Positions 4,201-46,230 of a stretch of 46,230 bases of DNA are shown here, piece after piece (position 1 is the stretch's first letter; each line of letters begins with the position of its first letter). This DNA is from a virus: the IMG/VR virus record IMGVR_UViG_3300045303_000093, positions 1-46,230 of that record, one strand, 5' to 3'. A program made the position numbers and the translations under genes. The notes beneath the pieces were generated by a model. It was given only the letters and a program-made list of their open reading frames with translations, was not told the origin of the DNA and ran no database searches.

Positions 4201-4202
4201 AA

Positions 4203-12409: not shown

Positions 12410-12410
12410 G

Positions 12411-13502: not shown

Positions 13503-13518
13503 TAATAGTACTAACAAA

Positions 13519-17462: not shown

Positions 17463-19319
17463 ATGAGAAAACTTCTTCTGCTGTTGTTGTTACTGCCTAT
17501 TGGTGTGTTTGGCCAAGATCCCGTAAAAGGGCTGTTCGGTTCCGGTACGCCTAATCCCAATCTCGCTGGCGTAATCAACACGATCTATACGGACATCAGC
17601 TCAAACACGGTTTATATCTGCACAAACGTGACGCTCACGCCGACCACGCGGAGCTGCACGTGGACCCCTTCCAGCCTTTCTGTAGGCGTAATAAAAGCCA
17701 ATACAATTAGCGCTACAGATTACGGCGTAGTGGCCGATACCAAGTGGGATACCAACGCTACACTCACGAATGGCAGCGGAGCGGTTACGCTGAGCGCTAC
17801 ATCTCCACCAGCAGCAGTGAGCGACGTTGGCAAAGTATGCTTTGCGACCAGTTGGCAAGGTGGGACAGGCGGTTACGCGGCGAACGTTCTACGTATTTCG
17901 GCTGGAACAGTTTCCTCGGTTACAGATGCCACGCATTTGACTTGCTCTACCAACTCCAATTCTAACTGCGCAGCTCTTTGTTCCTTCATATGGGGAACTG
18001 ACGATACGACCGCTTTATCGAATGCCTGGAACGCAGCAGCCAACAATTCTTCGAATCGTTGTATAAGCCTAGTGCTTCCATCGGGCGGGATGCTCACTTC
18101 CACAGGACAGTTTAATACTTCCACCTGCAATACCCGCATCGTAGTTCCCGGTGACTTCCCCATGCTGATAAGTGGGCAAGGGATGCGTGTTACTTACATT
18201 ATTCCCATTGGAGGGACTTTCAGTTTTAACCACTCGACTTCCTGTAATGGTGCAGCCGGGTCTGGTACTTCCTGCTTTGCGGGCATCAATGGTTTGAGCA
18301 TTCGCGATCTTTCTATCAGCGGATTTGGCTGGGATAACACCGCTGCACCGGCATCGACCAATATCGGGCTAATCTCTACTGACGGATATTGGACGAACAT
18401 AGACCTGGAGCAATTTGGGGCCAGCGATGCCAACCTTTGTGGGTATTACTTATCCTCAGGCGGGGCCATCGGTCAGAACATCAACAGCAATGGTGGAGGA
18501 AGTCATTCCCTATGTGGTGGCAGTGCAAACGGTGCCTTGATCACCAATAGTTATTTTTGCTGCGGTTTATTCGGAGCCTATGCTCCGGTTCCTAATGCTA
18601 CCGCGCAGTTCAAACTGACCGGGTTTCAAGGATTTGGCTGCAGTGATGTTGTTCTGAACGTAACGGCATCTGGCGCAACATTGAATTTGGATAACGTTTT
18701 CGCGCAGACCACTTGCAACTCAGGCAGCGTTAGCATCATCAATGTCGGAGCTACTGGAAGAGTGAACTTTAATACCTCCATCGCTGGAATTGGAGGTGGC
18801 GGAAATGAGAACGGAGTCTTTCTCAGCGCTTCCGGAGCTCAGATGTATGCAAACGATGTAACATTTGTAGGCTCAGGAACAGGAACGCCAGTAACTGCGG
18901 TAGCGGGATCGAAGTTCTATGATCGTGGCGGCAATACTTATACCGGTGGCACGGCAGTATCATTTGCGGCAGGCACATTCCGCAAGCCAGCACCTGAGGG
19001 AAATTGCGGGGCAGTCGGGTCGGCTGCTAGTCCGTCTGTTGCAGCTTGCGGTTCGGATGGGGCCGGTTCTGTTTCTTGCTCTACGAGCGCGGTATCGACT
19101 TGCACTGTAAATACAACAGCAGTAAACGCGAACAGTCAGATCATGGTGCAGCAACGTACCGACACCGGAACAGGGACGCGGCTATCAGTAACTTGCAACA
19201 CTACATTGAGCGCGATTCAGCCTGCAATAACTGCGATAGTGGCTGGGACCAGTTTCAGTTTTGGTTTGACGCAACCTGTTACGAATCCGAATTGCTACGC
19301 ATATTCAGTCATCAACTAA
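17463..19319 (+). CDS. Signal-peptide beta-helix protein between terminase and portal
   Basis: 618 residues. N-terminus MRKLLLLLLLLPIGVFGQDP is a strong Sec signal peptide with cleavage near G17-Q18. An ATDYGVVADTKWDTNA stretch (near residue 85) is the pectate-lyase/phage P22-tailspike type entry into a right-handed beta-helix. The middle is Gly/Ser/Asn-rich with many paired cysteines (SFNHSTSCNGAAGSGTSCFA). The last ~100 residues form a Cys-containing beta domain (SVSCSTSAVSTCTVNTTAV ... PNCYAYSVIN). Probably a polysaccharide-binding or -cutting protein acting outside the cytoplasm. Its place between packaging and portal genes, and the signal peptide, are unusual for a tailspike. Confidence 0.75.
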   Translation: MRKLLLLLLLLPIGVFGQDPVKGLFGSGTPNPNLAGVINTIYTDISSNTVYICTNVTLTPTTRSCTWTPSSLSVGVIKANTISATDYGVVADTKWDTNATLTNGSGAVTLSATSPPAAVSDVGKVCFATSWQGGTGGYAANVLRISAGTVSSVTDATHLTCSTNSNSNCAALCSFIWGTDDTTALSNAWNAAANNSSNRCISLVLPSGGMLTSTGQFNTSTCNTRIVVPGDFPMLISGQGMRVTYIIPIGGTFSFNHSTSCNGAAGSGTSCFAGINGLSIRDLSISGFGWDNTAAPASTNIGLISTDGYWTNIDLEQFGASDANLCGYYLSSGGAIGQNINSNGGGSHSLCGGSANGALITNSYFCCGLFGAYAPVPNATAQFKLTGFQGFGCSDVVLNVTASGATLNLDNVFAQTTCNSGSVSIINVGATGRVNFNTSIAGIGGGGNENGVFLSASGAQMYANDVTFVGSGTGTPVTAVAGSKFYDRGGNTYTGGTAVSFAAGTFRKPAPEGNCGAVGSAASPSVAACGSDGAGSVSCSTSAVSTCTVNTTAVNANSQIMVQQRTDTGTGTRLSVTCNTTLSAIQPAITAIVAGTSFSFGLTQPVTNPNCYAYSVIN

Positions 19320-21569: not shown

Positions 21570-21801
21570 GGCTCAGCAGCTTCTAGATGCCGTAGGTGAT
21601 CCACTGCTCAGACCGGCCTTGCAAGCGTTTTTCGATGAGCAGAAACGGGAGCATGTAGAACGGCTGCTATCAGCGGTGCGTAAGCCGGTGCGCGACACGA
21701 TGAAAGAAGCTCAATTGGCGGGAAAAGTCGAAGCGTACGAGCAAATCTTTCCTGACCTTGAACGATTTGCGGAAGAAGCAATGAGAAACGCTTCCCAATG
21801 A
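21538..21801 (+). CDS. Small helical head protein with apparent ATT start
   Basis: The coding frame runs through the end of the portal gene, but the only canonical start is TTG 21619. That would discard the well-formed helix NEAQQLLDAVGDPLLRPALQ. AAGGGAG at 21525-21531 lies 6 bases before ATT 21538, giving 87 residues starting (M)PVQANLRLNEAQQ. All-helical and charged (KREHVERLLSAVRKPVRDTM). Function unknown, probably a minor head or scaffold-associated protein. Confidence 0.55.
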   Translation: MPVQANLRLNEAQQLLDAVGDPLLRPALQAFFDEQKREHVERLLSAVRKPVRDTMKEAQLAGKVEAYEQIFPDLERFAEEAMRNASQ

Positions 21802-21854
21802 TTTCCACGGACCAACCGTGTGCATCTGGAACCAACCCAGAGAAGGAGCAGTAA

Positions 21855-22943: not shown

Positions 22944-22958
22944 GCAGAAGGAGCATAA

Positions 22959-24170
22959 GTGGCTCTACAAGTAGCACGCAGTTTCAACCAGATGGTTACG
23001 GACACCACCAACGTCCGCGACGTTTCTGAGCAGATGGTTTTGCTCGAACCGGATGCGGCGCCGCTGTTTGTCCTGACCAATTCTGCCAAGAGAAAACAGC
23101 CGACCATCGGCCCACGCTTTGAATGGGTTGAGGACACGGAAGTTTCGCTCTGGGGCCAGTCTAGCGCAGCCGCTGACTGGAGTTCCGCGGCAACTAACAT
23201 TCTGGTGGCGGATGGAACGCTATTCGGCGTGGGAGACATCGTGGCCGTGCCAAAAGCACAGTCATCGTCTGCCGCCCCGGAAGTTTTCCTGGTAACCGCC
23301 ATTTCCACCAACACTCTGACCATCACCCGAGGTATTGGTAGCTCCGGCGCGGACACAGTTTCCGCTACCGGCTCGCTCCGCATCCTCGCATCGGCGTTCA
23401 AGGAAGATGACAACATCGGGCAGCAACGCTACACGGCAAAAACCGTGCAGATCAGCTATGCCCAAATCTTCAAGACGCCGGTTAAGGTCACTCACACTGC
23501 AGCTTCCACCAAACAATATGGCGCACCGCAAGGCGAGCGGAAGTATCAGCTCGTTAAAGCGTTGATTCGCCATCGTTCGGAAATCGAAGCTGCTGGTCTG
23601 TGGGGGCGCGCATCGGAAAGTCTTAACTCTCCATCTTCGCGGTGGACGAGCATGGGCTTCCTGTCGCGCATCGCCACCAACAAAACGGACGCCAACTCTA
23701 CCGCGACGATCACCACTTGGAACACATTCTCTGAAACGGCATTCCGTTATGGAGAAAAGCAAAAGCTGTTGCTGTGCGCTCCCAAGGTGATTTCCGCGCT
23801 TAACTTCTACTCGCAAAACAAGCTGTTGACGCGAGTGGGAGACACGGTATTCGGCGTGAAGATTGCCCGTTTTGAAATGGCACTCGGTGAATTCCTGCTC
23901 GCTAACGACTACCGTTTGGGGACTGCTGACATTGGCTTCCCGGGCGGCAACTCGTTCGCAACCCATGCGTATTCCATCGACCTGCCATCTGTTGCCATGC
24001 GCTATTTGCAGGGCGGCGGTGACAACCTCATTGGCGATACCAAACTGTTCGAAAACATCCTGCCTGACGGCTCGACCACTCGAACGGATGAATATCGCAG
24101 TCAGCTTGGCTGGGAAATCCGGCATGAGAGAAAACATGCCTGGATCTTCGACCTGTCGAGCTACAGCTAA
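22959..24170 (+). CDS. Major capsid protein (SU10/DUF5309-like, HK97 fold)
   Basis: 403 residues from GTG 22959 with AAGGAG upstream. Resembles the SU10-type capsid family: N-terminal VRDVSEQMVLLEPDAAPLF, RFEWVEDTEV, an inserted beta-barrel (ILVADGTLFGVGDIVAVP, FLVTAISTNTLTITRGIGSS), then IRHRSEIEAAGLWGR and the P-domain core. It ends YRSQLGWEIRHERKHAWIF. The strong hairpin terminator directly downstream fits a highly expressed coat gene. Confidence 0.85.
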   Translation: MALQVARSFNQMVTDTTNVRDVSEQMVLLEPDAAPLFVLTNSAKRKQPTIGPRFEWVEDTEVSLWGQSSAAADWSSAATNILVADGTLFGVGDIVAVPKAQSSSAAPEVFLVTAISTNTLTITRGIGSSGADTVSATGSLRILASAFKEDDNIGQQRYTAKTVQISYAQIFKTPVKVTHTAASTKQYGAPQGERKYQLVKALIRHRSEIEAAGLWGRASESLNSPSSRWTSMGFLSRIATNKTDANSTATITTWNTFSETAFRYGEKQKLLLCAPKVISALNFYSQNKLLTRVGDTVFGVKIARFEMALGEFLLANDYRLGTADIGFPGGNSFATHAYSIDLPSVAMRYLQGGGDNLIGDTKLFENILPDGSTTRTDEYRSQLGWEIRHERKHAWIFDLSSYS

Positions 24171-24177
24171 TACAACC

Positions 24178-24205
24178 GGGGCGGGGGAAACCTCGCCCCA
24201 CTTTT
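24178..24205 (+). terminator. Intrinsic terminator after the capsid gene
   Basis: GGGGCGGGG (24178-24186) pairs with CCTCGCCCC (24191-24199) around a GAAA tetraloop, with one G-U pair. ACTTTT follows. A partial stop here would keep capsid expression above the genes that follow. Confidence 0.8.
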
Positions 24206-24216
24206 AAGGAGAAGAA

Positions 24217-25094: not shown

Positions 25095-25492
25095 TGGCAA
25101 TCTGTTCAAACTGTGGAGCGGAAGGTCCGCGAGTCCGCTCCCGCTGGAATGATAAAGAGCAGTTACCGGACATTTGCCCGTCCTGCTCGCCCAGTTCTTT
25201 CGAGAAGTTCACTGCTCCCAGCGAAAAGAAGATCTGGATGGGCTACGAAGCTCACCCGAATGAGTATGTAAAGGCCGAAGATGGTGGATTTGACCGCAAA
25301 CCGGAATACCGTGTCGAACAAGAAGAAAAACTCACGCAAGAGACTGCCGAAGAAAGAGACGCTCGCATTAAGGCGGAAGATAACAAAAGGAAAACTCGAA
25401 GAACTCTACCAATGGATGAAGCGGAACTTTCCGGAGCTCTCAGAAAGGCCGAAGAAATAGTTTCTTGGATGACCGGAACCAATGTCAACTAA
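25094..25492 (+). CDS. Zinc-ribbon protein
   Basis: 132 residues, ATG overlapping the previous stop. CSNCGAEGP ... ICPSCSPSSF gives a four-Cys zinc ribbon. The rest is highly charged and helical (YRVEQEEKLTQETAEERDAR). Function unknown. The end overlaps the glycosyltransferase gene by 11 bases. Confidence 0.62.
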   Translation: MAICSNCGAEGPRVRSRWNDKEQLPDICPSCSPSSFEKFTAPSEKKIWMGYEAHPNEYVKAEDGGFDRKPEYRVEQEEKLTQETAEERDARIKAEDNKRKTRRTLPMDEAELSGALRKAEEIVSWMTGTNVN

Positions 25493-26423
25493 CCATCACT
25501 GGGAAAAAGCAGCGAAGAAACTGTTACTCAAGCCGGAAGGGCGAGCGGCACTAAAGAAGTTCGGAATCGATGTGGAAGTAGTAGGACAGAAAAACGGCCA
25601 TGTGGAAGAAAAAGCGACCGTGGTGGTCCTTTGCCCGACTTATCGAGCGCCTGAACCGCAGATGCAAGATTCTCTTCGGGCGATGGTAGGAGCAACGGAC
25701 GCAATCGTCTATTCCGGTCCGCCGATTCAGTCCTCGGTCGTTCATTGGAGCCGCAACGCGATGTTTGGCGAGCAACTGAAGAGCGGAAAACCGTGGACAC
25801 ACGCTCTTCTGATTGATGACGATATGGTGCCTGAGCCTGGTGATTTGAATAAGTTGCTAAGCCATAAGAAAGACATCGTTGCAGGGCTTTGCACTCGCAG
25901 AAGCGACCCGCCAATTCCAACGATTCGCTACTATGACGATGAAACCGGAGCATTCGAGCAAATCTGGGAGTGGCCAGAAAATAAACTGGTGGAAGTAGGC
26001 GGAATCGGCACTGGATTCATGCTGGTTTCAAAACACGCTGTCGAGCAAGTCGCCCAAGCATATTTTGACTGTCTATGGGAAAAGGATTTCTACGGAGTTT
26101 CTGATGAATGGGTGAACGTCAACCGCGATCGCCGACTGAAACATTTTGACGAAACGCGAATCGCTTACTGGTTCCGGTTTGCACCATCACTGAAACTGGC
26201 AATCGAACAGGGCGAAGACATGCACTTCTGCATGATGGCCAGAAAGTATTGCGGCATCCCGGTGTTCTGCGACACATCTGTTCAGCCGGGACATATCGGG
26301 CAGTATCCGTTCGGCGTAAAGGATTTTCTGCCGTATCGAGATGCGTGCATTCAGATTGCGAAGGAAAAAGGCACCTACAAGACGCAGCCGAAGATTGAAG
26401 CGGAGATTGAGATTGTCAGCTAG
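25482..26423 (+). CDS. GT-A-type glycosyltransferase-like protein
   Basis: 313 residues. ATVVVLCPTYRAPEPQMQDS, then NAMFGEQLKSG, then ALLIDDDMVPEPGDLNKLL: the DDD is the metal/sugar-nucleotide (DxD) motif of GT-A enzymes. GIGTGFMLVSKHAV and GEDMHFCMMARKYCG follow, like the acceptor/catalytic region. First of four sugar-related genes within the virion-assembly block. It likely transfers a sugar to a virion or host surface component (inference). Confidence 0.72.
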   Translation: MSTNHHWEKAAKKLLLKPEGRAALKKFGIDVEVVGQKNGHVEEKATVVVLCPTYRAPEPQMQDSLRAMVGATDAIVYSGPPIQSSVVHWSRNAMFGEQLKSGKPWTHALLIDDDMVPEPGDLNKLLSHKKDIVAGLCTRRSDPPIPTIRYYDDETGAFEQIWEWPENKLVEVGGIGTGFMLVSKHAVEQVAQAYFDCLWEKDFYGVSDEWVNVNRDRRLKHFDETRIAYWFRFAPSLKLAIEQGEDMHFCMMARKYCGIPVFCDTSVQPGHIGQYPFGVKDFLPYRDACIQIAKEKGTYKTQPKIEAEIEIVS

Positions 26424-26910
26424 GCCTAAATATGAATTCCACCTTAAGACTTGGTCAGACATTCAGGATCACTTACCAAGACTTTACGCAGCAGCCAAAG
26501 GCAATTGCATGGAGATCGGAGTTCGACATGGCTGCTCCACATCCGCTCTACTGGCGGGAATTGAAGAGCGCGGAGGCCACCTTTTCAGTGTGGACCTTAA
26601 CGGCTGTTATATCTTCACCGGCCATCCACAATGGACTTTCTTCCGGGCAGATACACTGAAGAACCTGATGGCCCTGAAACAATTGTTGCATCAGGAGTGG
26701 GAAGTGCTGTTTGTTGATGGGGATCATACTTACGAGGGAGCTTTGTCGGATTTGACGAACTTTGGAGACAGGGCAAAGCGCATCTTCGTGCATGATACCG
26801 ACGCTCCTGATTTCCCCGGAGTGAAACAGGCAGTAGAGGAATTCGTCAAGCAGGGCAAGCGGAAAGTGACATATCACCCAGGGAGTTTCGGAATGGCGGA
26901 AATCGTTTGA
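26413..26910 (+). CDS. Class I SAM-dependent methyltransferase (Methyltransf_24-like)
   Basis: 165 residues from TTG 26413, 7 bases after GGAG and overlapping the previous gene; the longer frame from 26341 is not supported. NCMEIGVRHGCSTSALLAGI is SAM motif I, and HLFSVDLNG and VLFVDGDHTYEGALSDL follow. The HDTDAPDFPGVKQAV segment is typical of the CmcI/FkbM-like sugar or natural-product methyltransferases. Probably methylates a sugar made by its neighbours. Confidence 0.75.
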   Translation: MSARPKYEFHLKTWSDIQDHLPRLYAAAKGNCMEIGVRHGCSTSALLAGIEERGGHLFSVDLNGCYIFTGHPQWTFFRADTLKNLMALKQLLHQEWEVLFVDGDHTYEGALSDLTNFGDRAKRIFVHDTDAPDFPGVKQAVEEFVKQGKRKVTYHPGSFGMAEIV

Positions 26911-27833
26911 AGATCGCAGCGTTCTACTCAGATAGCCCTTTTGCCGGTTGGGTGCAAGCGGAAGGCTTCGTGGACGTACTGAAACGAATGGGTCACGAAG
27001 TGGTAGGAATCGGCGTACCGCCCGTCACGCAAATCACGCAAGCGATGGCCGACAAAGTGAACAAGCCTATTGATGATTGCGACCTGATTATCGTTTCTGG
27101 CCCGGAATGGCTGCGGAAATGGATTCTGGCTTTCTATCCAAATTGGGGAAAGCTAAAAGCACCGAAAGTTGCGTGGTATCACGAAAGTTTTGTACGCGAC
27201 GACTTCACCATTAATTACGGCGATTACGAGAAGATGTACGACTTTCATTTCTTTCCTGACAGATCAGATGCAGAGAAATACAAGGGAGAATTTCTTCCTT
27301 TGGGCGTCGATACAGAAATATTTAACACGTTCAGCTCCTATACACGACCGCCCCGAGAAATTGAAATAGGTTTTATCGGCCTTATGTATCCGAAGCGTGC
27401 GGCGTTTGTTAACGAACTGACTCCACATCTTGGCGACATCAAGATTAAGTATATGACTGCTTGTCAGTCAGAGCGCGGACTGATTCCTGCAATCGGCGTA
27501 TGGGATGCAGACGGCTTCAATATCCGTCGATCAATGGAACTACTTGCCGAGACGTACCGCCGAATCAAAGTGTTTGTTACATTCCCATCTCTGTCCAATG
27601 TGCTAGTGGCAAAAGTTCTAGAATCCATGGCGTGTGGCTGCAAGCTAGTCGCTCCCAAGCAGCCAATTCACATTGACGGATACTTTCCTTACGAAGGTGC
27701 CTATCAATGCGCTGAGCAGATACGTTCCGCATTGAAAACAGATTTGATTGACTACGATTTTATTTCCGAGCACCGCATGGAGAACCGTTTCGATCAAATC
27801 TTTGCAAAGGTCGGCGTATGCGTATCCTTGTAG
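26907..27833 (+). CDS. GT-B-type (GT4-like) glycosyltransferase
   Basis: 308 residues from TTG 26907, overlapping the previous stop. N-terminal Rossmann-like half (KIAAFYSDSPFAGWVQAEGF, CDLIIVSGPEW). The C-terminal half carries the nucleotide-sugar binding pattern LSNVLVAKVLESMACGCKLV, equivalent to the GT4 E-x7-E/PxxxxEAMACGxPV site, in a reduced form. Companion of the GT-A enzyme in the sugar cassette. Confidence 0.75.
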   Translation: MKIAAFYSDSPFAGWVQAEGFVDVLKRMGHEVVGIGVPPVTQITQAMADKVNKPIDDCDLIIVSGPEWLRKWILAFYPNWGKLKAPKVAWYHESFVRDDFTINYGDYEKMYDFHFFPDRSDAEKYKGEFLPLGVDTEIFNTFSSYTRPPREIEIGFIGLMYPKRAAFVNELTPHLGDIKIKYMTACQSERGLIPAIGVWDADGFNIRRSMELLAETYRRIKVFVTFPSLSNVLVAKVLESMACGCKLVAPKQPIHIDGYFPYEGAYQCAEQIRSALKTDLIDYDFISEHRMENRFDQIFAKVGVCVSL

Positions 27834-28672
27834 CCGGTTCAGAAGGCATGATCGGATCGAATGTGGTGCGCTTGCTGCGGGAGCGCGGCGAATCGCCTGA
27901 TCTGTGCGATAAGAAATCAGGCTGGGATGCTCGAGACGTTCGAGACTTCTACGACATCATTTACGATTGCGCATCGCCCACCAGGGGAATCGGCAGCCAT
28001 GATTTTCTTGAAACTGCGCAAATCCCGCTGAATCTGGTGCAGCAGACCGCGCACATCGTTTATCTCTCAAGCTCCTGCGTCTATCCCGACAATGCCACGA
28101 TTCCCACGCCAGAGAGCGAAGGATTTTTGGGAGAACCGGAAGAAGCGAATCGCGGATATGGCTGGGCGAAGCGGGCGGGAGAGCTGGCGTGCCGATATTC
28201 AAATGCGAAATACACGATCCTACGCTTGGGGAATATCTACGGACCTTCCTACGACTGGACCAATCCGGTAAAGCACGTGATCCCTTCGCTGATTGAAAGA
28301 ATTCTGTCTGGAGAAAATCCTCTGGTGGTTTGGGGCAGCGGAAATCAGACGCGCTCGTTCATGTACGAGGAGAGTTGTGCTCGAATAATTCTGGAAATGT
28401 CAGACCGTGCAGGCAATAGAGGAGTATTCAACGCTGGTGGACAAGAGACCTCGATACATGAACTGGTTGAAACGATTGCGGAGATTGTTGGCTACGAAGG
28501 GAAAATCGTTTTCGATACCACAAAGCCGGAAGGTCCATTACGCAAAGCGCAAGACACTAACAAAATGGATTCAATAGTTAGAGCACATCTTTCACTTCAT
28601 ACGGGACTGGAGAGAACAATCAGTGCAGCGCGACGAAATTATCGAGTTAGCGAATCAGCTCTCCGAGCGTAA
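27818..28672 (+). CDS. NAD(P)-dependent sugar epimerase/reductase (extended SDR)
   Basis: 284 residues. RILVAGSEGMIGSNVVRLL gives the GxxGxxG NAD site. SSSCVYPDNATIPTPESE and YGWAKRAGEL (YxxxK) give the catalytic Ser-Tyr-Lys. The SSSCVYP form is like GDP-L-fucose synthase and related epimerases. NIYGPSYDW and GSGNQTRSFMYEE follow. It would make a deoxy- or epimerised NDP-sugar for the neighbouring transferases. The last 50 bases overlap the next gene. Confidence 0.82.
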   Translation: MRILVAGSEGMIGSNVVRLLRERGESPDLCDKKSGWDARDVRDFYDIIYDCASPTRGIGSHDFLETAQIPLNLVQQTAHIVYLSSSCVYPDNATIPTPESEGFLGEPEEANRGYGWAKRAGELACRYSNAKYTILRLGNIYGPSYDWTNPVKHVIPSLIERILSGENPLVVWGSGNQTRSFMYEESCARIILEMSDRAGNRGVFNAGGQETSIHELVETIAEIVGYEGKIVFDTTKPEGPLRKAQDTNKMDSIVRAHLSLHTGLERTISAARRNYRVSESALRA

Positions 28673-29309
28673 AGGCGAGCGTGTTCTCAATCTTCAGACG
28701 CTGTACCGCTTTGTGGTGCAGGATATCTGCAAGCGGCAACGTTTCTGGTGGAGACGTGTGCAGGTTACTTTCAATCTGACCATCGGAACACCTACTTACG
28801 ATCTAACAGATATAACGCTATTCCCGGACCTGTTCGAAATCGCTCTCGATGAAATCACCAAGTTCACGCTCATCACTTCACCGAATCCACTGCAAGTAGC
28901 GGAACTTGTTCCGGTGTTTGACCCGGAAACGCTGATCGAAATGAAGAACAACGTTTCTACACAGCAGCCCGGCCGCTACACCATGGACGCAGGAGACTAT
29001 AAAGTTTTGCGAGTGGACATGCCGGACGCGGCTTATCAGGCATATATCGTTGGATGGGGAATGGCGAATCCAGGATCAGACACCTTTACAACGAAGGTTC
29101 CGCTCATTCCTACCTGGGGCCATAACACAATTGTTATGGGAATCGTTGCGAAAGTTTTCAAGTTTGCTTATGGCTCAGAGAATCCTAAGACGATGGATGC
29201 AATCGCGGAATACGAGCAAGGTTTGCAGGATTTGATGCAGCGGAAACAGTTTGACCCGAATTACAAATTGCAAATGAGCTTGAATGAATCCGCGGTGCGC
29301 TCGACGTAA
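28623..29309 (+). CDS. Head-tail adaptor / tail tubular A-like protein
   Basis: 228 residues from GTG 28623. Starts with a helical part (RDEIIELANQLSERKGERVL, LYRFVVQDICKRQRFWWRR) then alternating strands and helices, ending NYKLQMSLNESAVRST. This size, and the position between head genes and the large tail-tube gene, fit the podovirus gp4/gp11-like adaptor that closes the portal. Similarity is structural in style, not a firm family match. Confidence 0.58.
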   Translation: MQRDEIIELANQLSERKGERVLNLQTLYRFVVQDICKRQRFWWRRVQVTFNLTIGTPTYDLTDITLFPDLFEIALDEITKFTLITSPNPLQVAELVPVFDPETLIEMKNNVSTQQPGRYTMDAGDYKVLRVDMPDAAYQAYIVGWGMANPGSDTFTTKVPLIPTWGHNTIVMGIVAKVFKFAYGSENPKTMDAIAEYEQGLQDLMQRKQFDPNYKLQMSLNESAVRST

Positions 29310-33325: not shown

Positions 33326-33333
33326 GTGACGAT

Positions 33334-36463: not shown

Positions 36464-39142
36464 GTGGGACAAGTTCCGGCCAAATACTTTACTCCTAGCG
36501 CACCTTACGGCAGTTCCCAAGCGGCTAATACGGTCAACCAGGCCAATCCGGCCGCTGTGAATCCGCAGACGCCGTTGCTACCACCGAATTTCACCGATCC
36601 GGGCAAGATGCAGACCGCAGGAGTGGCAAACCCGGTTACCGGTCAAGGCACAAGTGGAGGCAGTCTCTTGAAAAACAATCCAGTTTCTAAACTCTACGGT
36701 CTAGTGCTGCTGATGCTTTTGTTCCCTTGCTTGGCTTCTGGTGTAACCACTGTAAATGGCAAGGTTCAGAACCTCGGAACCGGCAATATGACCAACGGCG
36801 TATTCGCCCGGTTCTGGCTGAGAGGCTGTGCAGGGAATCAGCCTCGCGTCAACGGAAGTGCGGTTATTGGGCCATCACAGGGAGGCGTTTTCTTCTTTGA
36901 CTTGCCAACCAATTCCGTTGGAAACGTTACCGGCACACTCTATTCCACGCGGGACAGTACCGGAACTGGCGGAGGTGACATTGAGTGCGGAGGATCAAAA
37001 ACCGCTGTGTGGTACGGAATGCAAATCTTCGTCTCTGGTAAAGGTGGCCCGGAAATGCCCATCCACGCCAAGAGCGGAGGGATTCTCGACATCACGCAAG
37101 TCATTCCGATCACCACGAGCCCGGTAGTTCAAGCTCCCGCTGGGGATGTCACCTATCTGCGTTTGGACGCTGCGAATAGTCCCGTCACCGGAAATTTGCA
37201 AGTCGTTGGGAAAGTCATCGTAGCGGGAATCAACGGCGACGTGTATATGGACGGCTCGAAATATCCAAGCCTCTCTGAAGCTGTAGCGGCGCTTCCTTCC
37301 GGAGGAACACTCCGCATCAGTGCTGGAACTTACACCATTCCTGCCACGCTGAACATGGTTTCTAACCTCGACATCGAATGCTCCCCGAATAATTCCACAA
37401 TCTTGCAAGCCAGCACTGCCTTGTCTGATCCAGTAGTCCAAGCCAATGGCATTAATCATTTTCGCATCGCTGGATGCGTGATCGACGGCAACCGGGGAGT
37501 CAACACCAATCAGGTCAAGCTCGTTCATATCATCGGGTCATCGTATGGCGATGTTACCGACAATCACATTCAGAATGCCAACACCCGATGCGTCTACGTT
37601 ACAAATGGCAGTTCGTATATTCGAGTTCGCAACAATGAAATCAGCAATTGCGGGCAGCCGCTACCTGCGACGAACGGCAACGAAGGGGTTGCGGTAGGAA
37701 TCGACGGGGCCGGGGACAGCGTTTCTCATGTCGATGTCGCATTAAACACCATTCACGACACCAGCATGGGAATCGGCATTTACAACGGCACAACCAACGC
37801 ACTCTTCGACATCAATGTAACTGGTAATCGAGTTTATGCCGTATCGAATGACGGCATCTTGGCGTTCAGTATCGGTCCCGGCGCTCCCATTCAGAATGTG
37901 CGCGTAGAAAACAACGAAGTCTATTGCACTGGATGGCCAGCTAACGGAACTGGTTTCAGCCCGAATTGCACGCCGGGACTTTTCCAGACGGGCTCAACGG
38001 TATCGTCAGGCGGTGTCGGCATCAACATGAATTCTCCGCTGCTTGATCGTCCTATCGTCATGGGAAATTCTTCCCACGACAATTTCTATGAAGGCATCGA
38101 TATGGTGGCGCAAACCATCACTACGGTCAGCACTTCAGGAACGACAGTTACCTGGGTAAGTGGCGATCCGTTCAGCACTACATGGGTAGCGGGGCAAGCC
38201 CTTCGCATCAATGGAGTGAACTATCCGCTTGTTTCGGTGGCCGGTGCCAACACCACGCTGACTCTCGGCAGTAGCGCGGGAACGCAGAGCAATGTCCCAT
38301 TTACGGGAATCGGCTATATGCGCGGAACGATTGTGGGAAACACGACCTACAACAATGGTATGGGAAATGTTGGGGTTTCCGGCTCCGGTTTCAGCGATTC
38401 AGCTTACGGAAATAGTTGGTCGGGAAACGTGGCTTACAACAATCAGGCCTACGGATTTATCGATCAGCTTTCTGTCGATGTGACGCACAACGGAGATAAA
38501 GCATACAACAACGACCAACGCTCAGGCGCTACCGGATTCATTTCCCAGGACACTCTGCGTGGTACATGGCTGAGTATCACCGCAGATGATAGCCAAGCCG
38601 TTCCCACACAAATATCTGATTTCGTTTTCTCTGGACTGTCAAAAGACAATTACGTCGAATCCGCCAGCATCAATGCCACTCGCGTTACTGATTCCGGCAC
38701 CGGAAATAGCTGGAAGATCGGTAAGACGTTTCTCGGGACTCCGGTCTGTATCGCAACAACCGGCTCTGGCGGTTCGTATTGCGTAACAGGTTCGCTGGCT
38801 GGCGGAGCATTTACGATGAAGCTGCCTGCCTCAAACGGAACGCTTTCTCCTCTCGGTGTGCAGGATTGCGGAACAACCAGCACTTGCGCCGCAACAGACA
38901 TCAGCGCTACCGCTCACATCGTAAAAGGCAGTGTCGCTCTGGTTTCAGGAACTCCCAGCACCGCAACGGTTACGGGATTCTCTCCGTTTTTCAGTTCTAC
39001 CAGCAGTTTCGTTTGCACGGCGAGCAATGCAACCACTCAAACGAATGCAATCAAAGTCGTAAACGCTTCGACTAGCTCTATCACTCTTACAGGACCGAAT
39101 ACTGTAACTGACACGGTGAATTACAGCTGCATCGGTAACTAA
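36464..39142 (+). CDS. Beta-helix protein with internal signal peptide (two possible starts)
   Basis: 892 residues from GTG 36464, which has AAGG/GAAGAA upstream. A TTG at 36431 is in frame but unlikely. The first 68 residues are soluble and Pro/Asn-rich (SAPYGSSQAANTVNQANPAA). Then comes a complete signal peptide KLYGLVLLMLLFPCLASG behind an internal TTG at 36668, with GGAGG at 36656-36660. A short form of 824 residues is therefore likely. Later: KYPSLSEAVAALPSGGTLRI (near residue 265), a pectate-lyase-type beta-helix entry, and helix rungs such as YIRVRNNEISNCG. A C-terminal Cys-containing beta domain (SSTSSFVCTASNATTQTNA) ends NYSCIGN. Probably acts on surface polysaccharide. Confidence 0.72.
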   Translation: MGQVPAKYFTPSAPYGSSQAANTVNQANPAAVNPQTPLLPPNFTDPGKMQTAGVANPVTGQGTSGGSLLKNNPVSKLYGLVLLMLLFPCLASGVTTVNGKVQNLGTGNMTNGVFARFWLRGCAGNQPRVNGSAVIGPSQGGVFFFDLPTNSVGNVTGTLYSTRDSTGTGGGDIECGGSKTAVWYGMQIFVSGKGGPEMPIHAKSGGILDITQVIPITTSPVVQAPAGDVTYLRLDAANSPVTGNLQVVGKVIVAGINGDVYMDGSKYPSLSEAVAALPSGGTLRISAGTYTIPATLNMVSNLDIECSPNNSTILQASTALSDPVVQANGINHFRIAGCVIDGNRGVNTNQVKLVHIIGSSYGDVTDNHIQNANTRCVYVTNGSSYIRVRNNEISNCGQPLPATNGNEGVAVGIDGAGDSVSHVDVALNTIHDTSMGIGIYNGTTNALFDINVTGNRVYAVSNDGILAFSIGPGAPIQNVRVENNEVYCTGWPANGTGFSPNCTPGLFQTGSTVSSGGVGINMNSPLLDRPIVMGNSSHDNFYEGIDMVAQTITTVSTSGTTVTWVSGDPFSTTWVAGQALRINGVNYPLVSVAGANTTLTLGSSAGTQSNVPFTGIGYMRGTIVGNTTYNNGMGNVGVSGSGFSDSAYGNSWSGNVAYNNQAYGFIDQLSVDVTHNGDKAYNNDQRSGATGFISQDTLRGTWLSITADDSQAVPTQISDFVFSGLSKDNYVESASINATRVTDSGTGNSWKIGKTFLGTPVCIATTGSGGSYCVTGSLAGGAFTMKLPASNGTLSPLGVQDCGTTSTCAATDISATAHIVKGSVALVSGTPSTATVTGFSPFFSSTSSFVCTASNATTQTNAIKVVNASTSSITLTGPNTVTDTVNYSCIGN

Positions 39143-39146
39143 ACTA

Positions 39147-42100
39147 ATGAAAATCAAACTGTTGTTTTTCTCGCTGGTTTTTCTGGCGATGGGCGGGAGC
39201 CTGTCTGCTCAGAGTTGGTCCGGCCAATCTTCCGGTACTAGCCGTGTCGTCCCTCCCTATCTTTTTTGCGTGGGTGAGGATAATGGCAAGGATGTTTGCC
39301 TAAGCCAGACTCAAGCAAACGTGATGAAGGTCACGAATGGGTCCCTCGATTTCGTTCTAACTTCTCGCACGGTAGCCACTCTGCCTCCAGCATCACTAAA
39401 TGCGGGCCGCGTCTATCGCGTCATAGACGGAACGAGCACTGCGGATTGCACAGCAGGCGGCGGGCTATTTAACTCGATTTGCACTTCTGACGGAACCATC
39501 TGGACTCCCTTGGGCGGTGGTGGAGGCGGCGGAGGCGGTAGTGGAACGGTTCTGGCAGTCGGAGCTACTGCACCGTTAGTAGGTGGACCGATCACAGTTA
39601 GTGGCACTCTTAGTTGCCCAACTTGTGTTATTTCTCCCATCGCTTTGCCGAGCGGCCGGTTGCTGATAGGTGGAGGGTTGCAGGCTATATCACCGGGGAA
39701 TTTGACTGGAGACTGTACCACTGCAGGAAACGCAATCACCAATTGCACCAAGACAAATGGTGTTCCCTTTGCCACTTCAGCCACGACTGATACTACGAAC
39801 GCTTCGAACATTTCTAGCGGGACGCTGAACCATGCTCGGTTGCCTGCCCTAGTTTCTGGCGACATTCCAAACAACGCAGCGAACACCTCCGGAAGTGCCG
39901 GAACCGCAGCGGCTCTAACTTCACTTCCTACGAATTGCGGCGTGAACGTAGCAGCTACCGGAATTCTGGCAAACGGAAATGCTACGGGATGTTTTGTTCC
40001 CGGTCTCAATCCAGCGGTGGGACCAGTCGGAACAGTACAGACCAGCGATGGAGCCGGAAATCTATCTGCATCTGGAGTAAAAGACGACGGAGCAAGCCTT
40101 ACTGTAGATCGGGACGCCACTTTCCTTGGCCCTAATCCGACAATCGATTTGACAAGATGGCATGTCCGCGCAATCAGTGCCACGATTGCCACGACCGGAA
40201 GTATCAATTCAGGAACGAATGCTCTTACTGTTGCCAATGGCGGTCAATTAATAAACGGTGACGGAATCGTAGTGCGCGGCGCTGGAGCGAATTGCACGGT
40301 GGCTACTCCAGACCCGCCTACGGTTACAGCTTCCAACGCCTCGAACATGCTCAATACCGGGCTGACAGTGGCCAATCCGGGGGCAACAACTTATCAGTAT
40401 CAAGTCGTAGCAGTTTCCGTGAATGGTTGCTACACGCCAGCAAGTACAGTAACGGTTATTACTAACGGGCAAGCCACGCTCGGAACGCAGACTGTCAATA
40501 TTTCCAGCTGGACCCGCGCAAACAACGTAGTGACCGTAACAACGTCCTCTGCTCACACGCTGGTAACAGGATCGATGGTATGGATTACGGCTGGATTCAT
40601 TGACGGCTTCTATCAGGTAACAGGCAGCGCGGATAACACACATTTTACGGTTAACGAAGGGCAAGACACCCGCAACGGTGCGGCGGCTTCTGGCGGTGCT
40701 GGTGGGACGGTCTCCTATTGGGTAGGCAATCACATTAGCTGGGTTTCCAAAGCCGGGACCATGAAGTACCTCATCTATGGGCGTACTTCTGGAAGCATGG
40801 CGCTGATTGGCGTTTCTCTGCCTGATTCAAATAACTTCGGAGCGCCAATTATAACTGTTGACCCGCTCTATAACACATTTGACGACTGGGGGAGTACGAT
40901 CACCAAAACCCCAACTGTTCCTGATTACTACCCGACTACTCCTCCAGGCTCCGGAAAGAACAACGATCTTATAACCACGATTGCCTCAGGCGGCGGGACC
41001 AACAACATTGTCACGACTGACGCGGCGACAAACACCGTAGCTGGAGTAGTCGTCAAATTCGACAATACTGCGCCACTTCTAGCTGCAATCACCGCTACCT
41101 ATGGAGGAGCGACACAAGGTGGGGTGCTGCGTTTTCCGACTACGGCCGCCTTCTACGTTTTCAATTCCATGTTTGTGCTGGGAGCTTTCCCTTCCACCAT
41201 TGCCGTACAACAGGACGGGCCTATAGCACTTGGCGACACCATTATCATGCAGGCTGTGGAATGGAACGGCGGAAACCCTATAAGTCTCGGTACGCAATTC
41301 GGATTCTCCAAACACGCTTCGATTACTTCCGGAACAGCACATCCGATGCTCTATACGGCTAATCAGAACGTACATTTCTCGAATATTTCCATCGCCGGAT
41401 CTAGTAATTCTCAGAATCTTTGGGTGTTAGATGCTGGGGCAATTCCTGCTAGTTCCTGGTATGACGTGAACTTCGGTAACGCCGTTACCGACTGGGCTGG
41501 GCAAGGTCTCATTATCCGCAACAACATCAACGGTGCGAGTGATTTTGACTTCAAAAACGTTTCTTTCGGTGCCGGTCCGGCAATCACAGACAAAGATCCT
41601 ACCCCGCTATTCCAAGTGACGCAGGGATTGCCTCCATTCAACTTCGACAGAGTGTTTTTAAATCGTCGCGGCATGTACCTAGGCTCTAACACCAACGGAA
41701 CACAAGGAAACATCAACAATATCTACTGTCAGGGCTGCATCATGCCCAAGATCACGCTCAACAACACTACCGCAGGCGTTACGGTAGTTGGATTGACTGT
41801 AAATAACTCCATCGATGATACGGTTCCAACTGCGGTTCCGATTCTTGCCTATTTTGGTAACCAGCTAGGAACAATTAATTTTTCCAATGCCAACGGCTTA
41901 GGAACCGGCAGTCAGATGTTCAACGGCAATGGCAGCGTTGCTTTGAACTTAAGAGGAGTCGGGCAGGCTTCGCAAAGCATAGGCCAAAGCGTCTTCGTGA
42001 ATAACATCCCGTCGGCGGCGACAGCTGTTTCCGGTACTTATTCCAGTGCCCGTACTGCGTATCCATTGATGCAGTCGGATATGGCGGTAGCGGTAGGCGC

Positions 42101-44498
42101 TCCGTTCAGTATCTATGTCAATTCCCTGAAACAACCAGCACCGACTTGCAGTAATACGGGTGCCGGAACTGTTCCGGCTGCTTCATACACCTTCAAAGTA
42201 GCTCCTGTATTTGCCAGTGGCGGAGAAGGACCGATCAGCGATCCTTCCTCGGCTTGCAGCTCTAACGGAAGTCAGCAGATAACAATTAATTGGACGCTGG
42301 CAACCGGGGCTATCGGTTACGACCTATACGCAAATGGATTCAGTTTTCAATGCGCCGCGCCGTGGGTTAGCGGCGGTTCTACGCTAAGTTACATCTGGAC
42401 CGGTGCGGTAACTTGCGGACAATCAAATGCAACGAATCCCGGAGCTGGCCCTTCCGGAATCTCCAGCGGTTCTATTTTCTCTCCGCAATTTACCGTTCCT
42501 GCTATTGATGGCGGTGGATTCGGGGCGATGACTGCTCCTCACCTTTCCTCTAACCCGGCATGGTCAATGCCTGATAACGGTGGAGTCGGGATCTTTGCAA
42601 CCAACCCGACTACGCCCACAGGCGTGGCGTTTGTTCCGGTATTCATTCCCGGCACGACTCCCGCAAACTCTTCCGCCGCTTATGCCATGCAAGGAATCGT
42701 TCCGAACGCTCAGAGTGGCGCGACTTATACGATTCTGGCGACTGACCGATCAAAAATCGTTACGTTCAGCAACGCTGCTGAAACTTACGTGACCATTCCG
42801 CAATCCGGAACTGCCGGATTCACCAGCAACATCGTGTACAGGCTATTCAATCGCGGAACAGGACTGGTGGTTCTGACGCCTACGACTTCTACAATCAACG
42901 GCTTACCGAAAATCACCATGCAGACCAATATGTTCTGCACGATTCTTTCCGATAATACGAACTACCTCGCGAATTGCGAGACGTACACTCCATTTAATAT
43001 CGATAACTACGGTGCGGTGGGCGACTTAACCGCGATGACGGGTGTATCGCTAACCGCAGCGGGAACTACGCTGACCTGTACCTCTTGCGCATTTACTTCT
43101 AACGATATCGGCAAGACGGTTCTGGTGCAGGGTGGCGGGGCAAGCGCACTTCTAGCCTACACCGATACAGTTGCAACCATAACGGATGGGACGCACGTTA
43201 CGCTCACCACGCATACCTCAGGAACTACGGTCAGTGGTGGAACGGGAACTTACGGCACCGACAACGGAACCGCCATCGCTGCGACTCTTACGGCGGCAGG
43301 AAATGCTACCGCGCCAGGAAGTTCTCTGGTGGTTATCCCATCGAGCGGAGAATACCTAACCCGGACAGCCCTCACGATCCCGGGAAATGTGTCTATTCAA
43401 CTTGACGGATACCTGCAAGGTGCAAATGGCGTTGCTGCGGTGCTGCAGACTACGACTAATACCTCAGCACCATTCTGGGAACACCAGCGCATCTTCGGTG
43501 GTGGAGTCCTAGATCTCGGTAGCTCAGCCTTCCGTGGAATCTGGATGCACCAAGGGCGGCATAACGATATCTCGGGGATCAACGTTCGCGGGATGGGACA
43601 AACGAACTCGGTTGGTATTCAAGTCGGGGACCCAACGGCCGGACAGGTGGGTGGATACGAGACGATTATCTTCCACGTTTCGTTCGGGACGCACAATGTT
43701 TCCGGAGGATCTAACTCCCGCTGCGTATCATTTGACAATACGACAAACGGAAAATTCACTGACTCGCAGACAGATGCGCTTGTTGGTAACGGATGCGCCC
43801 TGGGAATCTTCGACGGCCAAGGCGGAGATAGGAATTCCAATGGCCACTTTTGGGGTCCTTCCCTTGCCACGGCATTCAGCGGGGCTGGCGATTTCTGGGT
43901 TGACATGGAAGCGGATACGCCCAGCTCAGTGGGATTTGAGGTTTCAGCTAACGAGCAAATTTCAAATGCACGTTGCTTCTTCAGCACCACCGGCACCGAC
44001 AATACCGCGACTTGCATACACTCGGCTACAACGGAACCGAGCGTAGTAATCACAGGTCTGCGTGTTCAGGGTGTTGATGGCTCGCATCGCTGGGCTTCAG
44101 ACAGCAACTTGCTCAGGACCAATCTATCGACATCCAGTATTCTCGGAGTGCAAAGCACGAACGTCGTAACTCAGAATATCTCTGGGAATCCTTTCCTGCC
44201 CGGTGTGCCGATTCGCATTGCTTCAGGAACTTCGGCGCTTAATACCGGCGCAATTACTTCCGGAACCTGTGACACGGCAGTCACAACTGCAGCAACCGGA
44301 ACAGCTACAACCGACACAATCACATACGGCTTTAACGGTGATCCAACGGGGGTTACTGGCTATACGCCGGTAACCACCGGTCGACTAGACATCATGGCGT
44401 ATCCAACTGCAAACAACGTTAATTTCAAAGTGTGCAATCGGACCAGCTCATCTATCACACCGGGCGCAATCACACTGAATTGGCAGGTTATCCGATAA
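39147..44498 (+). CDS. Giant 1783-residue signal-peptide beta-helix/fibre protein
   Basis: The largest gene. N-terminus MKIKLLFFSLVFLAMGGSLS + AQS is a Sec signal peptide. Order: a nine-Gly hinge near residue 125; fibre-like repeats (ALTSLPTNCGVNVAATGILA); beta-rich middle with first beta-helix (DNTAPLLAAITATYGGA...); an FN3-like domain around residues 990-1050 (APVFASGGEGPISDPSSACS); a second pectate-lyase-type entry, NIDNYGAVGD, near residue 1283; and a C-terminal Cys-containing beta cap (TSGTCDTAVTTAATGTATTD ... NWQVIR). Many Cys pairs suggest oxidative folding outside the cytoplasm. Likely a receptor-binding or polysaccharide-degrading fibre, or a secreted enzyme. No binding site as strong as its neighbours'. 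Confidence 0.75.
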   Translation: MKIKLLFFSLVFLAMGGSLSAQSWSGQSSGTSRVVPPYLFCVGEDNGKDVCLSQTQANVMKVTNGSLDFVLTSRTVATLPPASLNAGRVYRVIDGTSTADCTAGGGLFNSICTSDGTIWTPLGGGGGGGGGSGTVLAVGATAPLVGGPITVSGTLSCPTCVISPIALPSGRLLIGGGLQAISPGNLTGDCTTAGNAITNCTKTNGVPFATSATTDTTNASNISSGTLNHARLPALVSGDIPNNAANTSGSAGTAAALTSLPTNCGVNVAATGILANGNATGCFVPGLNPAVGPVGTVQTSDGAGNLSASGVKDDGASLTVDRDATFLGPNPTIDLTRWHVRAISATIATTGSINSGTNALTVANGGQLINGDGIVVRGAGANCTVATPDPPTVTASNASNMLNTGLTVANPGATTYQYQVVAVSVNGCYTPASTVTVITNGQATLGTQTVNISSWTRANNVVTVTTSSAHTLVTGSMVWITAGFIDGFYQVTGSADNTHFTVNEGQDTRNGAAASGGAGGTVSYWVGNHISWVSKAGTMKYLIYGRTSGSMALIGVSLPDSNNFGAPIITVDPLYNTFDDWGSTITKTPTVPDYYPTTPPGSGKNNDLITTIASGGGTNNIVTTDAATNTVAGVVVKFDNTAPLLAAITATYGGATQGGVLRFPTTAAFYVFNSMFVLGAFPSTIAVQQDGPIALGDTIIMQAVEWNGGNPISLGTQFGFSKHASITSGTAHPMLYTANQNVHFSNISIAGSSNSQNLWVLDAGAIPASSWYDVNFGNAVTDWAGQGLIIRNNINGASDFDFKNVSFGAGPAITDKDPTPLFQVTQGLPPFNFDRVFLNRRGMYLGSNTNGTQGNINNIYCQGCIMPKITLNNTTAGVTVVGLTVNNSIDDTVPTAVPILAYFGNQLGTINFSNANGLGTGSQMFNGNGSVALNLRGVGQASQSIGQSVFVNNIPSAATAVSGTYSSARTAYPLMQSDMAVAVGAPFSIYVNSLKQPAPTCSNTGAGTVPAASYTFKVAPVFASGGEGPISDPSSACSSNGSQQITINWTLATGAIGYDLYANGFSFQCAAPWVSGGSTLSYIWTGAVTCGQSNATNPGAGPSGISSGSIFSPQFTVPAIDGGGFGAMTAPHLSSNPAWSMPDNGGVGIFATNPTTPTGVAFVPVFIPGTTPANSSAAYAMQGIVPNAQSGATYTILATDRSKIVTFSNAAETYVTIPQSGTAGFTSNIVYRLFNRGTGLVVLTPTTSTINGLPKITMQTNMFCTILSDNTNYLANCETYTPFNIDNYGAVGDLTAMTGVSLTAAGTTLTCTSCAFTSNDIGKTVLVQGGGASALLAYTDTVATITDGTHVTLTTHTSGTTVSGGTGTYGTDNGTAIAATLTAAGNATAPGSSLVVIPSSGEYLTRTALTIPGNVSIQLDGYLQGANGVAAVLQTTTNTSAPFWEHQRIFGGGVLDLGSSAFRGIWMHQGRHNDISGINVRGMGQTNSVGIQVGDPTAGQVGGYETIIFHVSFGTHNVSGGSNSRCVSFDNTTNGKFTDSQTDALVGNGCALGIFDGQGGDRNSNGHFWGPSLATAFSGAGDFWVDMEADTPSSVGFEVSANEQISNARCFFSTTGTDNTATCIHSATTEPSVVITGLRVQGVDGSHRWASDSNLLRTNLSTSSILGVQSTNVVTQNISGNPFLPGVPIRIASGTSALNTGAITSGTCDTAVTTAATGTATTDTITYGFNGDPTGVTGYTPVTTGRLDIMAYPTANNVNFKVCNRTSSSITPGAITLNWQVIR

Positions 44499-46230
44499 AT
44501 GAGAAAACTACTTTTCCTTTTTCTACTTTTCGCGGCTCCTGCCTACGGGGCAAACTCCGTATTTCTTACGCAATCTGGCGGCGGAGCAGGAACGTCTTGC
44601 GGCTCTCCACAGTCCTTTGCTTATTTCAATAATGCTGCAAATTGGTCCGCAACTCCTACTGGCGTACAGATTGGGCCAGATACCACGGTGCATATCTGCT
44701 CAGGGACTTACACGGCGACAATCAGTACTACGCTCCTCACATTTCAGGGCAATGGAACGAGCGGGCATCCGGTAACACTGCTATTCGACTCAGGAGCGGT
44801 GCTTTCCAGCCCGAAATTCCAGAATAGTTTCAATGGCTCGCCTTGCGGCGGAGCAATCTCCATCTGCGGGCGCTCCTTCGTCACCATCGACGGCGGAACT
44901 AACGGAACGATTCAGAACACTGCCAACGGAGACTTGCTGGCAAACCAGGCAGGCACTACGGCGGTTGACTTCTACTCCGCTAGCAACATCAAGATTCTCC
45001 GCCTGACTGTCAACAATATGTACGTCCACTTGCAGAACAACACCACTCTGGGCGGTGGAAACTATTCCGATATGCGGGTATTTTCCGGCTCCGGTTCTAA
45101 CAACGAAATTGCCTTTAATACCGTAGATCAATGCGGCTGGTGCTTCTACTATCAGTATGCGAACGGCGATACCACCAACCGGATTCACGATAACTTCATC
45201 GGTCATTATGCCCACGCCATCATGTACGCGACTACGGGCCACGGCTCGCACGGGCAAGACATCTTTATCTACAACAATCACTTCCAGACAACGCGCAACT
45301 GGTCTGTGAATCCTCCATCTTGTCCTGGTCACCAGGACGGCATTCATATGTTTGGCAAAAATACTACTGGTGGCGCTCAGTCCACGATGGATGGGCAGTA
45401 CATCTACAACAATCTTTTCGACGGTCAAATGGGCGGCGGGTGCGATACCGGAAACATCTTCATTGAGGCTGGGTCGCTGACTACCGGAACACCGTCAACC
45501 GCTACTTCGACCTACGTTTGGAACAACATTTTCGATGCTAGTGGTTCCATTGTCGGCGGTGGTGGAACAGGCACCGGCTGGTGTTCGATCTTCGGGCACA
45601 ACGAAACTGGCGGTTCTGGTACGCATGTCTGGAATAACACGCTGATTTACAACGGCGACGTAGACAACGGGCAAGGCTACAACATCGGTTCCGTCGATAA
45701 CCTGTTCTTTCAAGGTAACGTCTCTTGGAAGATTTCAATGGGAGCGAACATCGGCACGCTGACGAATACGCCCGCCTCGCAGATTGACTACAACACTTAT
45801 GCAGGCGCTTGCACCGGAAATTGTTTCATTCAAAACGGCTCTTTTAAGTCTACCTTCGCTGCATGGAAATCGGGGCTTGGTTGGGACACTCACTCTCAGG
45901 CTCCTACTAACGCTGCCGTGCTGCTGAATGCAGATGGTTCTCCTCAGGCCGGTTCTCTCGTCATCAAGCAGAGTATTAACTTAAATTCCCTAGCTACCGG
46001 GAACCTCTCGACACTTTCTAGCGATACGACTAAAGGCGGTTCGAGAACTCCACTTACCAGGCCAAGCGGAACCTGCACCTCACAAGGAATCGCTACGTGT
46101 CCAGAACAAGGTGCGTTTCAATTCGCATCCGGTGGCGCTCCTGCTGCTTCGACACCAACGCCAACACCCGCGGCAGGAAGCTACGCTCCTACGAAAAGCG
46201 TGACGCTCGCGACTACTTCAGGCGGGGCGA
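44499..46230 (+). CDS. 5' part of signal-peptide beta-helix / chitobiase-Ig repeat protein (continues at 1)
   Basis: N-terminal 535 residues before the overlap; bases 46104-46230 are the same as 1-127, after which the protein continues to 1359 (987 residues in all). MRKLLFLFLLFAAPAYGANS is a Sec signal peptide, almost the same as that at 17463. Then CSGTYTATISTTLL and VTIDGGTNGTIQNT open a right-handed parallel beta-helix with NN-x-(F/I)-x-(G/N) rungs (NNEIAFNTVDQCGWCF, RIHDNFIGHYAHAIMY, IYNNHFQTTRNW, YIYNNLFDGQMGGG). ATG follows the preceding stop directly. The helix plus the C-terminal chitobiase-type Ig repeats suggest a secreted or surface-bound polysaccharide-active protein. Confidence 0.85.
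   Translation, partial: MRKLLFLFLLFAAPAYGANSVFLTQSGGGAGTSCGSPQSFAYFNNAANWSATPTGVQIGPDTTVHICSGTYTATISTTLLTFQGNGTSGHPVTLLFDSGAVLSSPKFQNSFNGSPCGGAISICGRSFVTIDGGTNGTIQNTANGDLLANQAGTTAVDFYSASNIKILRLTVNNMYVHLQNNTTLGGGNYSDMRVFSGSGSNNEIAFNTVDQCGWCFYYQYANGDTTNRIHDNFIGHYAHAIMYATTGHGSHGQDIFIYNNHFQTTRNWSVNPPSCPGHQDGIHMFGKNTTGGAQSTMDGQYIYNNLFDGQMGGGCDTGNIFIEAGSLTTGTPSTATSTYVWNNIFDASGSIVGGGGTGTGWCSIFGHNETGGSGTHVWNNTLIYNGDVDNGQGYNIGSVDNLFFQGNVSWKISMGANIGTLTNTPASQIDYNTYAGACTGNCFIQNGSFKSTFAAWKSGLGWDTHSQAPTNAAVLLNADGSPQAGSLVIKQSINLNSLATGNLSTLSSDTTKGGSRTPLTRPSGTCTSQGIATCPEQGAFQFASGGAPAASTPTPTPAAGSYAPTKSVTLATTSGGA
46104..46230. repeat. Terminal direct repeat (assembly overlap), right copy
   Basis: Identical to bases 1-127; see the left copy. 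The unit genome ends at 46103. Confidence 0.9.

Follow-up and report, generated by a model that had tools for sequence, protein, structure and literature searches.

The viral genome held as IMG/VR record IMGVR_UViG_3300045303_000093 (positions 1 to 46,230, the whole stretch analysed here and hereafter called the window) encodes four giant proteins, which we refer to as A, B, C and D, that all begin with predicted Sec signal peptides. Their export through Sec is well supported at the level of sequence, because signal-bearing proteins of this kind mostly have even cysteine counts, are conserved in relatives of the phage and recur in unrelated phages. With a probability that we put near one half, A–D would be tail fibres or spikes that are exported, acquire disulphide bonds as they fold in the periplasm, and become attached to the virions around lysis.

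The four genes, all on the plus strand, sum to 12.65 kb or 27.4% of the genome (27.9% if B is started at 36464), close to the share of about 28% given in a first-pass annotation of the letters alone, and the Sec signal peptides that it had read on all four were borne out, with canonical signal-peptidase-I sites in A–D. Signal calls were made with one explicit home-made rule applied to every gene, not with SignalP. The predicted cleavage points follow MRKLLLLLLLLPIGVFG in A (next residue Q), MKNNPVSKLYGLVLLMLLFPCLASG in B (next residue V), MKIKLLFFSLVFLAMGGSLSA in C (next residue Q) and MRKLLFLFLLFAAPAYG in D (next residue A), and each of the four signals has a positive n-region, an uncharged hydrophobic core and small residues at −3 and −1. 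No twin-arginine motif and no lipobox was found in them, which speaks against Tat export and against lipoproteins, and no second membrane segment was found in A–D, the KD19 maximum of the mature parts being at most 1.50 and below the 19-residue window of each protein’s own signal. The suggestion that the proteins might be anchored at the cell surface thus gained no support, since neither a lipobox nor a second transmembrane segment turned up. The rule was positive for none of the recognised portal, scaffold, capsid, adaptor and tail proteins, the tail tube included, and elsewhere in the window it picked out only a lipoprotein (3590–4024) and a small protein at 10982; its background, from the same multi-start scan of antisense open reading frames (ORFs), is ~6–7% positive.

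A second line of evidence comes from the cysteines. In exported proteins with disulphide bonds, cysteines tend to occur in even numbers (PMC7678975), and the mature proteins contain 22 (A), 14 (B), 28 (C) and 25 (D) cysteines, so that the many paired cysteines proposed earlier are indeed dense and even-numbered in three of the four, D being odd. When complete signal-bearing proteins from the window clade and three unrelated phages were counted, with a lower limit of 200 residues, 33 of 36 had an even number (binomial p 1.1e-7), although the cases are not fully independent, as the B homologues share a two-cysteine domain. By comparison, 85 of 155 signal-less proteins of the clade had even counts (Fisher p 1.3e-5 against the signal-bearing set). 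The pattern was first noticed in the clade and then checked on the other phages, where 13 of 14 were even; the odd counts belong to D (25), a 206-residue protein of relative G008 (3) and a protein of G414 (17). Signal-bearing proteins had 1.98 cysteines per 100 residues, control fibres that lack a signal 0.26. A small fibre bead motif occurs in both groups, and a cysteine occupies its YxC position in five of seven signal-bearing copies, which are small numbers; a sixth copy with the cysteine, in the A protein of relative G009, was missed by the signal rule but has MRKLTLILAFLLAGRAFAQ and was counted as signal-bearing by eye, and none of the remaining signal-less copies has a cysteine there.

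For protein B (36668–39142) the sequence favours a role on the virion. It consists of the signal peptide, a conserved N-terminal domain (36743–37255) with two invariant cysteines, a hypervariable body resembling a right-handed beta-helix and a C-terminal beta domain. This N-domain follows a signal in each of the eight genomes in which the locus is covered (G000, G005, G007, G008, G009, G013, G015 and G016) and is 53–70% identical in seven of seven relatives, while the body and C-terminus are essentially unalignable among them, apart from the body of G015 (29% identity over one fifth). A conserved N-terminal domain with a variable body is the pattern of receptor-binding proteins, and B appears to evolve like one that is anchored to the virion. 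B itself falls below the cut-off for Pfam Beta_helix; its homologues in G015 and G007 are above the cut-off for PF12708 and PF13229.

The start of B needed revision. Its signal had been described as internal to an ORF that starts at 36464, and it does lie ~80 residues into that longest ORF; the true start, however, appears to be a TTG at 36668, preceded at good spacing by GTGGAGGC, which opens a normal signal peptide (Shine-Dalgarno GGAGG and TTG at 36654–36670, ...agtggaggcagtctcTTGaaaaac...). The upstream part, 36464–36667 on the plus strand, corresponds to a conserved, proline-rich small protein that we call u and that is in frame with B here. In G007 and G013, u (60–80 residues) and B are separate genes in which an ATGA overlap contains the ATG of B, and they are therefore two coupled genes there; in G015, u is likewise a separate ORF. 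In this genome and in G005, G008 and G009 the two are in frame with no stop between them, and a Shine-Dalgarno sequence precedes the inner start in two of the four. The TTG start behind its GGAGG, together with the finding that u and B can be separate genes, led us to set aside a truly internal signal.

Proteins A, C and D share the signal but are built differently. A (618 amino acids, 17463–19319) has its signal at residues 1–17, a tail-fibre bead domain with a cysteine pair at ~24–73, a tailspike- or pectate-lyase-like body and a cysteine-rich C-terminal domain, and its gene lies 1 nt downstream of the second terminase piece and immediately upstream of the portal gene. The C-terminal domain reaches E 0.012 and 16.5 bits against K1-lyase_C (PF24146), short of the curated cut-off of 27. 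An Acidobacteriota chromosome has a frameshifted fibre-like gene, with a signal and tail-fibre repeats, part of which matches this domain at 52% identity. C (1783 amino acids, 39147–44498) carries an N-domain with the motif FCVGEDxGxDxC, tail-fibre-like segments and 28 cysteines, and G015 has a homologous signal and N-domain adjoining B. The N-domain of A is shared, that of C is shared in G015 only and that of D not at all. D (~988 amino acids) runs from 44499 across the contig end at 46230 to 1–1359, where bases 1–127 repeat the contig end; its polysaccharide-lyase-like, putatively beta-helical body is followed by four chitobiase-type CHB_HEX_C_1/Fn3_assoc repeats (PF13290, E 1.2e-50), each with a cysteine pair, and by a four-cysteine tail. 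The body of D is 30–33% identical to a signal-bearing protein amid glycosyltransferase and polysaccharide genes on an Acidobacteriota chromosome, and because of this likeness to a secreted protein of a bacterial exopolysaccharide cluster D is probably a captured, secreted cellular polysaccharide lyase.

Structure models of A and D, built from shallow alignments (mean pLDDT 35 and 40), make fold matches only suggestive. D gave weak Foldseek matches to PL6 lyases, the HK620 tailspike and the biofilm lyase RbmB (best E 0.004), and the fold search with A returned no significant match. The view that all four are beta-helices therefore holds well for the family of B, through its PF12708/PF13229 relatives, weakly for A and D, and found no support for C. 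PDB sequence searches returned no match for A, B and D and insignificant matches only for C, IMG/VR searches with A, D and the N-domain of C returned no relatives, and PHROGs held no family for any of the four. B, C and D are located after the tail block, as expected of tail-fibre genes, and A is not, lying between terminase and portal. The B, C, D and endolysin genes are packed head to tail, with the endolysin starting at 1360 immediately after D, which fits late expression together with lysis.

Signal-bearing proteins of this kind are not confined to one locus or one phage type. Among the relatives, the set of signal-bearing proteins (A-type, C-type and others) differs from genome to genome, and four sites are used: after B, in the gap that splits the terminase, ahead of the portal gene behind the terminase, and in the portal–scaffold gap. 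Runs of four consecutive, mostly small signal-bearing genes were seen in G016 (11251–13652, in the portal–scaffold gap) and G007 (1224–4495, downstream of B). A fibre-repeat search of IMG/VR returned 80 fibre ORFs, 79 of them with the start inside the contig, and a signal was called in six of the 79, with two more borderline; nearly all of these signal-bearing ORFs aligned to a region of the query other than the common repeat, and the signal-bearing fibres therefore form a group of their own. In other phages, proteins with the fibre repeat bear a signal only about once in 70. In G412 and G416 they lie directly after the baseplate genes of contractile-tailed phages, in the siphovirus-like G415 all four large proteins after the tail-tip gene are signal-bearing, and in G388, a prophage in an Acidobacteriota chromosome, a signal-bearing protein of 1,059 amino acids directly follows the tail-tip gene (baseplate, sheath and tail-tip names in these contigs were read by eye from sequence and gene order, not from profile searches). 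Signal-bearing fibres are, on this evidence, recurrent but not universal in Acidobacteriota phages; that all phages of the phylum export their fibres was rejected, as the fibre candidates of the prophages G123 and G371 are signal-less. Separately, an integrated element in an Acidobacteriota chromosome (G241, L154, contig C1, ~711000–722000) encodes a signal-bearing fibre-repeat protein of 1,148 amino acids beside a resolvase and an integrase-like gene, with no recognised capsid or tail genes.

The reading of A–D as exported fibres can be put as a sequence of steps. The infected cell would export the four through Sec, a step strongly supported by sequence, with signal peptidase I presumably removing the signal, and folding, with pairing of the cysteines into disulphides, would then take place in the oxidising periplasm. 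B would be the core receptor-binding protein, its N-domain docking to the virion or to a conserved partner and its variable body recognising or cutting surface polysaccharide, with A, C and D as swappable extra fibres or depolymerases. Since the capsid is filled in the cytoplasm, fibres and virions would meet when holin and endolysin open the envelope, and the virions would be completed at or after lysis. For B the virion-fibre reading is favoured because of its conserved N-domain and hypervariable body and because such proteins recur at the canonical fibre locus, and the window has no recognised fibre candidate that lacks a signal. Several points weigh against this reading. Membership of A–D in the virion, like the route of periplasmic fibres to the tail, is so far only proposed. 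The closest relative found for D is cellular rather than phage-borne. G413 is a counter-example, with signal-bearing fibres near the sheath gene and signal-less ones at the tail locus, as expected if the former are extra secreted proteins. The Acidobacteriota prophages G123 and G371, which have G415-like capsids, carry fibre candidates without signals. Finally, four genomes keep u in frame, and a fused, membrane-spanning u–B form may exist.

The main rival is that A–D are free secreted depolymerases or lyases that never join the virion and instead thin the exopolysaccharide of the infected cell and its neighbours, helping progeny to escape or spread; we regard this as a serious possibility, though on balance doubtful. 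It fits D best, given the signal-bearing cellular homologue between glycosyltransferase and polysaccharide genes and the weak fold matches to PL6 lyases and RbmB, and there is a precedent in the exported Pantoea enzyme WceF, which has a tailspike fold and is located in an exopolysaccharide cluster (PMC7949094); A and similar genes also occupy cargo-like positions among the head genes. It fits B worst, leaving unexplained why the N-domain is conserved along with the virion genes while the body turns over and why several types of phage have such proteins at their canonical fibre locus, and it would leave the window phage without a recognisable receptor-binding protein. A mixture, with B and perhaps A and C on virions and D free, is quite possible.

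Two further explanations concern the signals themselves. If the N-termini stayed uncleaved, the proteins would be held in the membrane, masking or destroying receptors (superinfection exclusion) or acting as signal-anchors in the manner of signal-arrest-release (SAR) endolysins. Some phage endolysins do keep their SAR signal uncleaved (PMC6116005), and u in frame ahead of the signal in four genomes would allow a membrane-spanning fusion; but good cleavage sites of the A-x-A type, followed by Q, T or A, are conserved, and B stands alone with an ordinary short signal in G007, G013 and G015, so that we consider this explanation unlikely. That the signals are chance hydrophobic N-termini of ordinary cytoplasmic fibres would agree with the background rate of the rule; it is very improbable given that every B homologue is signal-bearing, that so few of the control fibres are, and that a reducing cytoplasm would hardly account for cysteine counts that are both high and mostly even. 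Of what the first-pass annotation had proposed, export was thus strengthened by the cysteines, the conservation and the recurrence, and its three options for what follows (a secreted enzyme, surface anchoring or assembly after export) are only partly separable by sequence. More broadly, and somewhat more tentatively than for the window itself, we suggest that some phages of Acidobacteriota, and perhaps of other diderm soil bacteria, finish tailed virions outside the cytoplasm by attaching exported periplasmic fibres at lysis, a habit that would have arisen in or spread across podo-, sipho- and contractile-tailed phages.

The phage genome is circular at ~46,103 bp (46.1 kb), as concluded from the 127-bp overlap of the contig ends. 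Because its major capsid protein (22959–24170, plus strand; PF17236, E 1e-30), which fixes the phage type, and its head-tail adaptor (28623–29309, plus strand; PF24175, E 1.6e-9) match SU10-type families, the phage is most likely a short-tailed, SU10-like podovirus. Fourteen relatives were recognised in IMG/VR by the portal (60–76% identity), and head and neck genes are conserved across relatives at 37–92% identity. Another relative, with 70% identity in the portal and 90% in the capsid, is a contig of 31 kb binned with an Acidobacteriota metagenome-assembled genome, and Acidobacteriota are probably the hosts of this soil phage, a hint from binning given that the contig could be a co-binned phage. 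The head-tail block also holds glycosyltransferase-like genes, a methyltransferase-like gene and an NAD-dependent epimerase (25482–28672), and a glycosyltransferase-like gene is kept in all compared relatives at 45–61% identity. The gene for the terminase large subunit is split into an ATPase part (13748–14425, ending ISSAGPGWFGD) and a nuclease part (16490–17461), which are separated in the window by an endonuclease VII-like gene and a PCMT-type methyltransferase; the split occurs in all ten genomes examined (the window, G002, G005, G007–G010, G012, G013 and G016) with 1.6–5.4 kb of genes between, and no Rfam intron was found in the window. A small protein at 4398–4688 was judged by eye to contain bacterial Ig-like (Big_2-type) sequence.

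Tail fibres are host-range determinants, and both their synthesis and their attachment are assumed to take place in the cytoplasm. If the reading of A–D as exported fibres is true, fibre export adds a compartment to tailed-phage assembly and explains cysteine-rich fibres, and the expression and annotation of such proteins should change. Annotators may file exported fibres as auxiliary or as contaminating cellular secreted enzymes, a possible bias in calling the carbohydrate-active genes of soil viruses ‘auxiliary’; a paper on a soil viral chitosanase does not mention signals. What the finding suggests is either a late assembly step or a weapon secreted by the phage, of which we found no description in the open-access literature, and it bears on how Acidobacteriota phages attack polysaccharide-coated soil cells, in a phage without a deposited relative. 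No report of tail fibres with signal peptides was found in the open-access literature, in agreement with the earlier statement that no such phage system is described.

Among known systems, SU10-type (Kuravirus-like) podoviruses share the major capsid and adaptor families of the window phage, but its portal and B N-domain have no relatives among 50,697 deposited phages. The coat proteins pIII and pVIII of filamentous phages are virion proteins with Sec signals, and their virions are completed outside the cytoplasm; these are, however, extruded filaments, as against tailed capsids released by lysis. Late proteins of tailed phages do pass through the host Sec pathway in the case of exported endolysins, namely Lys44 of fOg44 and the SAR endolysins of P1 and phage 21 (PMC6116005), although these are lysis enzymes and not fibres. 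WceF of Pantoea stewartii and RbmB of Vibrio cholerae are exported exopolysaccharide enzymes with a beta-helix fold, and the homologue of D is likewise in an exopolysaccharide cluster; they differ in being cellular and in having no phage fibre modules, and the export signal of WceF is Tat (PMC7949094) rather than Sec as in A–D. Closest in architecture are the tailspikes and fibres of podoviruses (P22, HK620, K1 endosialidase-type, with PF12708/PF13229 bodies), in which, as in B, the N-terminal domain is conserved and the body, often a beta-helix, varies; they lie late after the tail genes, as B, C and D do, and fibre modules are shared as well (the bead domain, and NLSD/TARTNLGLG repeats in other signal-bearing proteins). 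The known podovirus proteins fold in the cytoplasm and have no signal peptides, and whereas control fibres are almost cysteine-free, the A–D group is rich in cysteines that come in pairs.

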